From a bacterium (GTDB lineage Bacteria; Patescibacteriota; Minisyncoccia; Phycocordibacterales; UBA12079), in the NCBI GenBank assembly GCA_018401295.1, contig JAGYLJ010000005.1, positions 1 to 52,615 of the forward strand: a stretch of DNA of 52,615 bases, in the 5' to 3' direction. Shown piece by piece: positions 2,863 through 23,445 of the stretch. The notes below the pieces were generated by a model, which saw only the letters and a program-made list of their open reading frames with translations, did not search any database and was not told the DNA's origin. The position numbers were made by a program, and so were the translations under genes. Numbering within the stretch: the stretch's first letter is position 1; the number at the start of each line of letters is the position of its first letter.

Positions 2863-2882
2863 CAAATCGCAAAAAAACAAAA

Positions 2883-2925
2883 GCAACAGTTTAAAAACTG
2901 TTGCTTTTGTTTTTTAAAAGAGCAA
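2883..2925 (+). terminator. Rho-independent-terminator-like hairpin after tRNA-Arg
   Basis: AAAACAAAAGCAACAGTTTAAAAACTGTTGCTTTTGTTTTTT. Confidence 0.7.
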
Positions 2926-3000
2926 ACTGCTTTGCTCTTTGACGATTTGTGCGGGCACAGGCATATTTTTGCGACCCACAGGGAGCAAAAAAGCCGAGGA

Positions 3001-3089
3001 GGGGATAAAAAACAAACTGCTTTGTTTTTTATCCAGTTTTTCTGAAAGAAAAAATTTCCTATATCGAGCGAAGCGAGATAGGAAATAGG
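3001..3089 (+). repeat. tRNA-associated palindromic repeat core, copy 1
   Basis: GGGGATAAAAAACAAACTGCTTTGTTTTTTATCCAGTTTTTCTGAAAGAAAAAATTTCCTATATCGAGCGAAGCGAGATAGGAAATAGG; near-identical to 8279-8367 (reverse strand) and 23356-23445. Confidence 0.9.
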
Positions 3090-3155
3090 TGGGTCAACAA
3101 ACACTTAGATATTTTTGAGTCCGGAGGACAAAAAAAATATTTAGTGATTTGTGTG

Positions 3156-3175
3156 CGATTCCTACTGGGGGGCAC
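3156..3175 (+). repeat. tRNA-Arg 3' fragment (T-loop to acceptor end)
   Basis: CGATTCCTACTGGGGGGCAC preceded by TTAGTGATTTGTGTG; no tRNA body upstream. Closest to the end of tRNA-Arg(GCG) at 11666-11737. Confidence 0.8.
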
Positions 3176-3435
3176 AAATTGAGCAAAGCGAAATTTGGGA
3201 CCCCAGAACGAGCCAACTGCTTGGCTCGTGTTAGAAATCGAAAGCCGGAAGATGTTGCAAACAAGGAGCAACACTGAGGCGGGGTCGCGGAACACTTAGT
3301 AAGATTTTCGAGCCTGCCTGCCGATAGGCGAGGCAAAGCGGAATATATTTAGTGATTTGTGACCACATGATTATGTATACGAAGTATTCCATTAACCTAA
3401 CAAAAAAAGACCTTCCGGTCTTTTTTGTGTGTCTG

Positions 3436-3453
3436 TGGGCGATGAGGGATTTG
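3436..3453 (-). repeat. tRNA-Val 3' fragment, copy a
   Basis: TGGGCGATGAGGGATTTG then GTCAC instead of AACCCCCGACC. Confidence 0.85.
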
Positions 3454-3600
3454 GTCACAAATATTTTGCTTCGCAAAATTTCGCTACCCCGACTCGGCGA
3501 CAAGCACTCGCTTCGCTCATCTTGTATACCGCCTCCGTCTTTCAAATCCCTATCGCTCCTACAAAATCAAAAATCCCAAAGCATTCGCTTTGGGACTTAA

Positions 3601-3994
3601 GATTTTGTGGGCGATGAGGGATTTGGTCCCCAGTTCTAATTATTTTAGTTCGCTTCACTCCTAAAATAATAAGAACTCTTGACCTCGCTCAGTCATATTT
3701 TTCTTTCGCTTCGCTTCAGAAAAATATATTCCCTCGGTTCAAATCCCTATCGCTCCTACAAAATCAAAAATCCCAAAGCATTCGCTTTGGGACTTAAGAT
3801 TTTGTGGGCGATGAGGGATTTGGTCCCCAGTTCTAATTATTTTAGTTCGCTTCACTCCTAAAATAATAAGAACTCTTGACCTCGCTCAGTCATATTTTTC
3901 TTTCGCTTCGCTTCAGAAAAATATATTCCCTCGGTTCAAATCCCTATCGCTCCTACAAAATCAAAAATCCCAAAGCATTCGCTTTGGGACTTAA
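3601..3994 (-). repeat. Two tandem copies of a 197-bp unit, each with a tRNA-Val 3' fragment (3608-3625, 3805-3822)
   Basis: 3601-3797 and 3798-3994 appear identical by eye; the supplied ORFs at 3679 and 3876 share the same first 48 residues at a 197-nt offset. The intact tRNA-Val continues the register at 3995/4002. Confidence 0.92.
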
Positions 3995-4001
3995 GATTTT
4001 G

Positions 4002-4074
4002 TGGGCGATGAGGGATTTGAACCCCCGACCTTCGCAGTGTAAATGCGCTGCTCTACCAACTGAGCTAATCGCCC
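4002..4074 (-). tRNA. tRNA-Val (UAC)
   Basis: GGGCGATTAGCTCAGTTGGTAGAGCAGCGCATTTACACTGCGAAGGTCGGGGGTTCAAATCCCTCATCGCCCA. Confidence 0.93.
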
Positions 4075-8001: not shown

Positions 8002-8020
8002 GCGGAGGGGGTGGGATTCG
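8002..8020 (-). repeat. tRNA-Ser 3' fragment, copy 1
   Basis: GCGGAGGGGGTGGGATTCG then GTCAC; adjacent palindrome ACAAAACAGTGCTTAAGCACTGTTTTGT. Confidence 0.88.
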
Positions 8021-8197: not shown

Positions 8198-8217
8198 TGC
8201 GGAGGGGGTGGGATTCG
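8198..8217 (-). repeat. tRNA-Ser 3' fragment, copy 2
   Basis: TGCGGAGGGGGTGGGATTCG then GTCACAAATCACTAA; adjacent palindrome AACAAAAATAAATACCTCAGTCGGTATTTATTTTTGTTAA. Confidence 0.88.
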
Positions 8218-8278: not shown

Positions 8279-8367
8279 CCTATTTCCTATCTCGCTTCGC
8301 TCGATAAAGGAAATTTTTTCTTTCAGAAAAACTGGATAAAAAACAAAGCAGTTTGTTTTTTATCCCC
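8279..8367 (-). repeat. tRNA-associated palindromic repeat core, copy 2
   Basis: Reverse complement GGGGATAAAAAACAAACTGCTTTGTTTTTTATCCAGTTTTTCTGAAAGAAAAAATTTCCTTTATCGAGCGAAGCGAGATAGGAAATAGG. Confidence 0.9.
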
Positions 8368-8463
8368 GACTCCCTCGCTTCGCTCAGTCCGTCTTTCGAA
8401 TTCCACCCCCTCATCAAAATGTTTGAAATTAAAATACCCCTTAAGGGGTATTTTAATTTCAAA

Positions 8464-8552
8464 TGCGGAGGGGGTGGGATTCGAACCCACGGTACAGTTT
8501 CCCGCACTCCAGTTTTCAAGACTGGCGCATTCGACCTCTCTGCCACCCCTCC
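8464..8552 (-). tRNA. tRNA-Ser (UGA)
   Basis: GGAGGGGTGGCAGAGAGGTCGAATGCGCCAGTCTTGAAAACTGGAGTGCGGGAAACTGTACCGTGGGTTCGAATCCCACCCCCTCCGCA with long variable arm. Confidence 0.94.
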
Positions 8553-22936: not shown

Positions 22937-23009
22937 CCGCTCGTAGCTCAGCCGGTAGAGCAGCAGCCTTTTAAGCTGACGGTCGCAGGTTCGATCCCTG
23001 CCGAGCGGA
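22937..23009 (+). tRNA. tRNA-Lys (UUU)
   Basis: CCGCTCGTAGCTCAGCCGGTAGAGCAGCAGCCTTTTAAGCTGACGGTCGCAGGTTCGATCCCTGCCGAGCGGA. Confidence 0.93.
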
Positions 23010-23080
23010 CATTTTTATTTATATCTTTGAGCGAAATAGCGAAGACGGTGGAGATGAAAGCGACGTCTAGGAGCTTTCAT

Positions 23081-23248
23081 GGCTTTTAAGCTGACGGTCG
23101 CAGGTTTGATTTCTCATAAAAGCCAATTGCTTGGCTTTTATGAGAAATCAAAAAGCTTTTGAGATATTTTTGATCCTGAGCTTGCCGAAGGAGAAAAAAA
23201 TATCCAAAAGGTATACTGTTCTGTAAGAAAGATCCCTGCCGAGCGGAC
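23081..23248 (+). repeat. Partial tRNA-Lys copy split at the T-loop by about 120 bp
   Basis: GGCTTTTAAGCTGACGGTCGCAGGTTTGAT (23081-23110), 120 bp of hairpins, then GATCCCTGCCGAGCGGAC (23231-23248). Confidence 0.88.
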
Positions 23249-23355
23249 AAATGTAGCGAAGCGGAATTTGTCCGCTTGGAGAAAGCCAACTGCTTGGTTT
23301 TCGTCAGGGAGCGAAAGCCGGAATATGTTGCGACTAAAAGGAGCAACAATGAGGC

Positions 23356-23445
23356 GGGGATAAAAAAACAAACTGCTTTGTTTTTTATCCAATTTTTGCG
23401 AAGCAAAAAATTTCCCATAGCGAGCGAAGCGAGTTGGTAAATAGG
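23356..23445 (+). repeat. tRNA-associated palindromic repeat core, copy 3
   Basis: GGGGATAAAAAAACAAACTGCTTTGTTTTTTATCCAATTTTTGCGAAGCAAAAAATTTCCCATAGCGAGCGAAGCGAGTTGGTAAATAGG. Confidence 0.88.

Follow-up and report, generated by a model that had tools for sequence, protein, structure and literature searches.

The window analyzed here, a 52,615-nt stretch of contig JAGYLJ010000005.1 from a Patescibacteriota genome, carries four repeat arrays, each located behind an intact tRNA gene (all four genes identified by ARAGORN and Rfam RF00005). Behind tRNA-Arg(TCT) (2791-2863, +), the sequence and its fold revealed a spacer (2864-2952, +) containing a hairpin with a CTGC loop (2917-2940) and a long, A/T-rich hairpin, after which the first copy of a three-hairpin core (3003-3089, +) is inserted following GGGG, as indicated by the core covariance model R1 (107.5 bits) and by comparison with an empty site. 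Folding of the unit delineated hairpin E (3099-3155, +; ACACTTA...TTAGTGATTTGTG) with the apical insert TCCGGAGGA, and sequence comparison identified a direct copy of a tRNA-Arg 3′ end that starts at the T-loop CGA (3156-3175, +). Farther along lie a CTGC hairpin within an inverted copy of the tRNA 3′ end (3208-3229, +; sequence and fold) and a second 3′ unit (3236-3371, +) forming a three-way-junction D-E module (model R2, 48.3 bits) with the empty core site GGCGGGGTCGCGG. On the opposite strand, the array behind tRNA-Val(TAC) (4001-4074, -) comprises two identical 197-bp tandem units (3541-3934, -; repeat and sequence comparison), each with a terminator plus inverted and direct copies of the tRNA-Val 3′ end, and a D-E module (3450-3547, -; R2, 48.9 bits); no core is present in this fourth array. 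The tRNA-Ser(TGA) gene (8465-8552, -) is directly followed by a hairpin that scores as intrinsic-terminator-like (8422-8463, -), the second core copy (8279-8365, -; R1, 108.4 bits), and a proximal (8199-8217, -) and a distal (8002-8020, -) direct copy of the tRNA-Ser 3′ end, each 19 nt and exact by sequence comparison. Behind tRNA-Lys(TTT) (22937-23010, +), a tRNA-Lys copy running from the anticodon arm to the T-loop (23079-23110, +; sequence comparison) is broken in the T-loop by a 22-bp perfect palindrome with a TTGC loop (23105-23152, +; hairpin search). The rest of this split copy, an exact 18-nt tRNA-Lys 3′ end (23231-23248, +; sequence comparison), precedes a D-E module (23309-23393, +; R2, 31.1 bits) interrupted by the third core copy (23358-23445, +; R1, 90 bits).

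The initial annotation, made from the sequence alone, had reported a palindromic core in three tRNA arrays, with copies at 3001-3089 (+), 8279-8367 (-), and 23356-23445 (+). All three copies were confirmed at these places, behind tRNA-Arg(TCT), tRNA-Ser(TGA), and tRNA-Lys(TTT), respectively; the covariance model placed the 87-nt, three-hairpin core at 3003-3089 (+), 8279-8365 (-), and 23358-23445 (+) with 108, 108, and 90 bits, and the repeat search returned identities of 96% and 87-88% over 86-99 nt among the copies. Every quoted hairpin and apical insert was also found at the loci described. The description of the conserved loop needs only a small correction, as the common loop is a CTGC tetraloop closed by AA/TT and not an 8-nt loop. 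Among the 25 perfect hairpins of the window (stem ≥7, loop 4), five carry CTGC (one on the minus strand) and one carries TTGC, and no perfect hairpin of either type occurred in 20 dinucleotide shuffles of the window. The GCGAAGC motif was found 11 times in the sense and 0 times in the antisense orientation of the arrays. Two features had been missed: the surrounding repeats are direct and inverted copies of the neighboring tRNA's own 3′ end, and elsewhere the core occupies the D-loop of an additional 5′ tRNA half.

Comparison of the loci resolved two architectures. In 3′ units, the intact tRNA is followed by a spacer, often with a terminator-like hairpin, an inverted tRNA 3′-end copy that often contains the CTGC hairpin, hairpin D, an optional core, hairpin E, and a direct tRNA 3′-end copy starting at approximately nt 54-58. 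In 5′ units, tRNA nt 1-18/19 are present as an extra copy, which is followed, after the D-loop GG, by the core, a short piece continuing or folding back the tRNA arms, an A/T-rich stretch, and the intact tRNA. Most core copies either follow the D-loop GG (nt 18/19) in an additional tRNA 5′ half or lie in arrays of 3′-end copies, which are split near nt 55/56; in three genomes of one genus, a tRNA-Leu(TAG) copy has its break within the anticodon arm. The left flanks matched nt 1-18/19 of the Phe, Leu, Ser, Val, Thr, Ile, Lys, Tyr, and Asn tRNAs. Exact partial tRNA copies, mostly ending at nt 18/19 or starting at nt 54-58, flank (at ≥13 nt) 13 of the 31 tRNAs in the genome of the window, 21 of the 36 in a complete relative (G005), and 3 of the 34 in a genome from another order of the same class. 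Separately, the tRNA-Thr(TGT) gene (G000:C1:2214-2640; L022/L103) is followed by four exact 89-bp repeats, each containing the last 30 nt of the tRNA, which ARAGORN labels as tRNA-Ser(ACT). Widespread palindromes of the TTTGCGAGCGAAGCGAAACAATCC type also adjoin some tRNA arrays (L053, L090, and others), with the GCGAAGC tip in common.

The core behaves as a discrete unit with defined boundaries, near-identical dispersed copies, and both empty and filled sites. Nine core copies were found in the 619-kb genome of the window, a metagenome-assembled genome (MAG) estimated to be 77% complete: three in the window, two each in contigs C12 and C21, and one each in C24 and C25. The same architecture is also present in the complete genome G005 of the same family. 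Cores at the Phe, Ser, Arg, and Val tRNAs of the window's genome are 97-99% identical from GG to AGG, while their outer flanks are unrelated, and near-identical cores with identity confined to GG...AGG were also observed at Ser/Lys in G013 (99% identical) and at Ser/Thr in G003. D-E junctions without a core (GGGGTCG...) exist in the genome of the window and are filled at other tRNAs. For 29 of 103 core copies, the nearest neighbor was in the same genome (permutation mean, 3.4; maximum, 11), and for 15 of the 103 it was at the same tRNA in another genome (permutation mean, 3.8; maximum, 11). This excess in both categories therefore reflects recent spread (or homogenization) together with some vertical inheritance.

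Placement of the core is strongly tied to RNA genes and to their strand. A tRNA lies within 1.3 kb of 118 of the 139 core copies, and the nearest one is on the same strand in 116 of the 118 (80 copies upstream and 36 downstream of the tRNA); because orthologous copies are not independent, this count does not follow a simple binomial. Of the 21 copies without a nearby tRNA, three lie inside 23S rRNA domain I (G024, G106, and G089), with rRNA matched on both sides and no flank duplication, and one is located 3′ of tmRNA. Others start at or near the stop codons of open reading frames (ORFs), including what we take to be rpsI and rny, read from the C-terminal residues. Core hairpin 1 together with its T-run scores as terminator-like, which might account for the copies at ORF ends. 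As further observations at these loci, the core-bearing 23S rRNA insertions (L064, L188, and L193) adjoin further expansion of the same region, and four genomes (L150, L168, L204, and L235) have a putative rpsI (ribosomal protein S9) 3′ end that either is folded back on itself or has the same modules behind it, the last codons forming one arm of core hairpin 1 in two of them.

The compensatory stems had been interpreted as implying selection on folding or a palindrome-generating mechanism, a claim that would have been refuted by the absence of covariation across copies together with stems explained by sequence identity alone. This test was run, and covariation was found. Across 41 copies, 94.1% of cells were paired, versus 84.8 ± 0.4 after shuffling, and 131 double-change cells were counted, versus 34 in the shuffles, with double changes in 21 of 33 pairs. 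The covariation score was 0.312 versus 0.142 in the shuffles and 0.04-0.115 in slid controls, and none of 500 shuffles reached the observed paired percentage or score. Kinship among copies is not removed by the shuffles but is retained in the slid controls. For the D-E module, a pattern with one base left free per side was searched in 238 genomes of the class, and all 26 matches had Watson-Crick partners, with four pair types represented; the reversed pattern had no match in the same 238-genome search. Both core covariation and D-E complementary partners therefore show that folding is preserved, and the earlier interpretation was supported. A sense-strand G-U pair in the E stem was invariant in the D-E alignment (18/18), although the invariance of this module is partly imposed by the search pattern. 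In the core, G-T pairs outnumbered A-C pairs (40 vs 24), and 16 cells of one column pair were unpaired, apparently as A-C. Sense-strand placement and sense-strand G-U wobbles probably reflect a process or selection acting on the sense strand. Templated correction of palindromes could nonetheless keep the stems paired and is a live rival, and the alternatives originally listed (RNA, single-stranded DNA [ssDNA], or a palindrome-generating process) are not fully separable by the present data.

The core and the D-E module differ in range. Model R1 detected the core in 85 of 297 genomes of one order of Ca. Paceibacterota and yielded only two weak positives outside the order in the phylum sample, whereas R2 detected the D-E module in 23 of 240 genomes across the phylum. 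The D-E module adjoins inverted and direct copies of tRNA 3′ ends, and a same-strand tRNA end lies ≤400 nt upstream at 18 of the 25 loci examined; some of the remaining loci are contig ends or may have been read in the wrong orientation. E-values from shortened calibration are rough, and deep relationships were judged on short sequences. No match was obtained by BLASTN of the array against phages and plasmids, in IMG/VR contigs searched with three patterns, or for any family of the element in Rfam at gathering threshold and E ≤ 1. No prior description of tRNA-linked palindromes in CPR/Patescibacteria was found in the literature searched, most subscription papers being outside its scope.

The extra 5′ copies closely follow their own tRNA. 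Identity over 17 nt was observed at 35 of 68 5′ loci, and where the tRNA differs between genomes, 159 of the 160 comparisons showed the copy to be closer to its own tRNA. Immediately upstream of the extra copy, matches over 17 nt were mostly at chance level, with approximately one-third of loci retaining an old upstream duplication. Such tracking requires selection, frequent renewal of the array, or conversion over a very short tract.

The best explanation for these data, which may as easily prove wrong as right, is that they represent small mobile elements, non-autonomous and dependent on structure, that act on the sense strand. The working form would be a folded single strand of the sense sequence, occurring as two linked kinds: the ~90-nt three-hairpin core, which would insert next to GG, and the ~75-130-nt three-way-junction D-E module, which would occupy the T-loop of tRNA 3′-end copies. 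Both would be carried in RNA-gene loops (the D-loop after G18G19, the T-loop at approximately nt 55/56, and occasionally an anticodon or 23S rRNA loop). Insertion at a tRNA would be accompanied by duplication of one side of the tRNA (nt 1-19 or approximately 55-76), leaving the whole gene intact, and arrays may later grow through tandem duplication and further insertion. Our data show covariation, discrete boundaries, near-identical copies in dispersed positions, and sites in both empty and filled states; they also show the loop positions, the strand bias, the duplication of flanks, and the patchy distribution. We infer from these that insertion proceeds through the sense strand (as RNA or non-template ssDNA), that duplication accompanies insertion, and that an unidentified trans factor is at work. 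The identical sense-strand loop positions in tRNA, rRNA, and tmRNA suggest, by inference, insertion into RNA or an exposed non-template strand, and a flank duplication that keeps the gene functional would explain the survival of tRNA insertions. Several points weigh against this proposal. No mobilizing enzyme was identified, no insertion or excision event was observed, and transcription data are lacking. The 5′ copies stay identical to the tRNA although the preceding sequence has diverged, which a passive scar would not predict, and the duplication step cannot be universal, given that the 23S rRNA copies show no duplicated flank. A reverse transcriptase of its own was considered and is not required, since RVT_1 is absent from the complete genome G005 and from G013, G002, G004, and G008, all of which bear the core. 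G013 had neither a Y1_Tnp nor an RVT_1 match despite its 99% identical core pair, so, as far as the completeness of the MAGs allows this to be judged, the genome itself need not encode the usual enzymes.

Among the rival explanations, a functional non-coding RNA remains possible. The tRNA-like units (acceptor/T-arm mimics with extra hairpins) would serve as a tRNA leader or trailer kept for regulating processing or abundance, for example through pairing competition with the tRNA 3′ half. The tracking of the tRNA by the extra 5′ copies despite upstream divergence is consistent with this reading, as are the many invariant positions of the D-E module across the phylum, though some are required by the pattern. 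A fold pairing the extra copy with the tRNA 3′ strand was favored in 52 of 56 5′ loci. However, the same preference appeared with shuffled spacers (mean, -4.3 versus -6.2 kcal/mol), and just 17 of the 56 loci exceeded every shuffle; no fold switch is therefore claimed, and the result is only suggestive. The patchy distribution (10-29% of genomes), the presence of the core at different tRNAs in congeners, and the terminator-like hairpins between the tRNA and the 3′ units also argue against a functional RNA.

A mutational process alone is unlikely. Template switching and slippage at hairpin-forming tRNA genes, without any dedicated element, would yield direct-inverted-direct triplications and perfect palindromes, with palindrome correction keeping the stems paired. 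In its favor, the 3′ units repeat a single tRNA end in direct-inverted-direct order, 5′ units frequently include a D or anticodon arm in inverted orientation, exact tandem duplicates exist (197 bp twice in the window), and rpsI ends are folded back on themselves. However, local switching cannot place one 90-nt core, 97-99% identical, at unrelated tRNAs; it leaves the conservation of the core across the order and of the D-E module across the phylum unaccounted for, and the 116/118 strand bias is unexpected.

Mobilization of REP-like palindromes by RAYT/IS200-type Y1 transposases through folded ssDNA is very improbable. Y1_Tnp genes occur in 43 of 61 relatives, including 11 of 11 family members, and hairpins tipped with GCGAAGC would suit ssDNA; d(GCGAAGC) forms mini-hairpins. 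However, RAYT genes are flanked by their own, different perfect palindromes and not by the core (18 RAYT loci), and core-bearing G013 (99% identical copies) and G047 had no Y1_Tnp match. An apparent RAYT beside the core in G002 and G008 was rejected as a linked mobilizer, being the same-strand neighbor gene of tRNA-Leu. The RAYT-like genes themselves (~220-245 aa) are each bracketed by a short perfect palindrome that differs per gene (e.g., TTTGGTAATCCGATTACCAAA and ACAGGGACTCGGTCCCTGT), as seen at G000:C12:26777-27001 (L119) and at 17 loci in relatives (L120-L138). Scars of site-specific integrative elements, which would leave att direct repeats at tRNA 3′ ends, are scarcely credible: direct copies do start in the T-loop, a common att site, and the control genome has a few such 3′ copies, but 5′ D-loop copies, inverted copies, and a conserved folded insert are not att features, and the tested sequences had no phage, plasmid, or IMG/VR match.

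For the structure-dependent mobile element, the closest working likeness, drawn by analogy, is with the mobile hairpin elements of mitochondria, namely, yeast GC clusters including GC42, fungal double-hairpin elements, and sponge RHEs (PMC4478555, PMC2800124). These are fold-constrained and enter rRNA genes, GC42 has the dinucleotide target AG, and the mobilizer is unknown (PMC4478555, PMC2800124). Both sets are short dispersed hairpins with structural constraint, occurrence inside rRNA genes, a dinucleotide target, and an unknown mobilizer; dispersed near-identical hairpins with empty and filled sites, and rRNA-gene insertion (three genomes), two tests of a mobile hairpin, are both met here. 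The sequences and host are different (homology to described members was not assessed), and the present element, unlike the mitochondrial hairpins, concentrates on tRNA loops, duplicates tRNA halves, and follows the tRNA strand.

Other known systems share fewer features. Rickettsia palindromic elements (RPE) are selfish palindromes tolerated inside genes because the product folds, and a folding product would likewise make insertion inside genes tolerable here. They sit in frame inside proteins, whereas the copies examined here are in RNA genes, beside tRNAs, and at stop codons; in-frame protein insertion was not observed, as the ORF-associated copies examined are located at or immediately downstream of the stop codon. 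The rtT/tyrT repeats of E. coli (RF00391) lie 3′ of a tRNA as tandem units that incorporate its 3′ end, a feature shared by our arrays. However, rtT as known lacks inverted copies, the D-E module, and the core, and its Rfam model gave no match at gathering threshold or E ≤ 1. REP/RAYT systems (PMC3733652) are likewise small dispersed bacterial palindromes, but the RAYT genes here bear other palindromes and the core keeps to RNA genes and to their strand. By the features tested, the present element is thus not a member of REP/RAYT, rtT, or RPE. Intervening sequences of 23S rRNA are extra hairpins in rRNA loops; the present element, in contrast, also occurs at tRNAs, tmRNA, and mRNA ends.

The element looks like mobile sequence of a sort that has received little attention, organized by the shape of the RNA; its structure is conserved, and it resides inside and beside tRNA, rRNA, and tmRNA genes in a large phylum whose members are mostly uncultured. 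It touches more than one-third of the tRNA genes in its own genome and more than one-half in the complete relative, and would account for numerous unusual partial tRNAs and 23S insertions among Patescibacteria. A bolder reading, which is no more than possible, is that of phylum-wide transposable RNA structures inserting into tRNA elbow loops (G19 and C56) via RNA or transcription-exposed ssDNA, carrying off a copy of the neighboring tRNA half and persisting as co-evolving tRNA-like structures. Such an element would be defined by its RNA fold and not by an enzyme or terminal sequence. Whether elements lacking their own enzyme can spread via exposed single strands or RNA becomes testable, as does the question of why partial tRNA copies remain identical to the real gene.

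The spacer type behind tRNA-Arg (AAATCGC...hairpin...CTGC hairpin...GCGATTT; window 2864-2952) recurs in near-identical form behind a tRNA in another family (G064, L239), a recurrence that might point to a third conserved module. The window also contains large imperfect direct repeats (79-88%) at 15253-15868/34781-35237 and 13657-13840/14431-14614, which are unrelated to the tRNA arrays.
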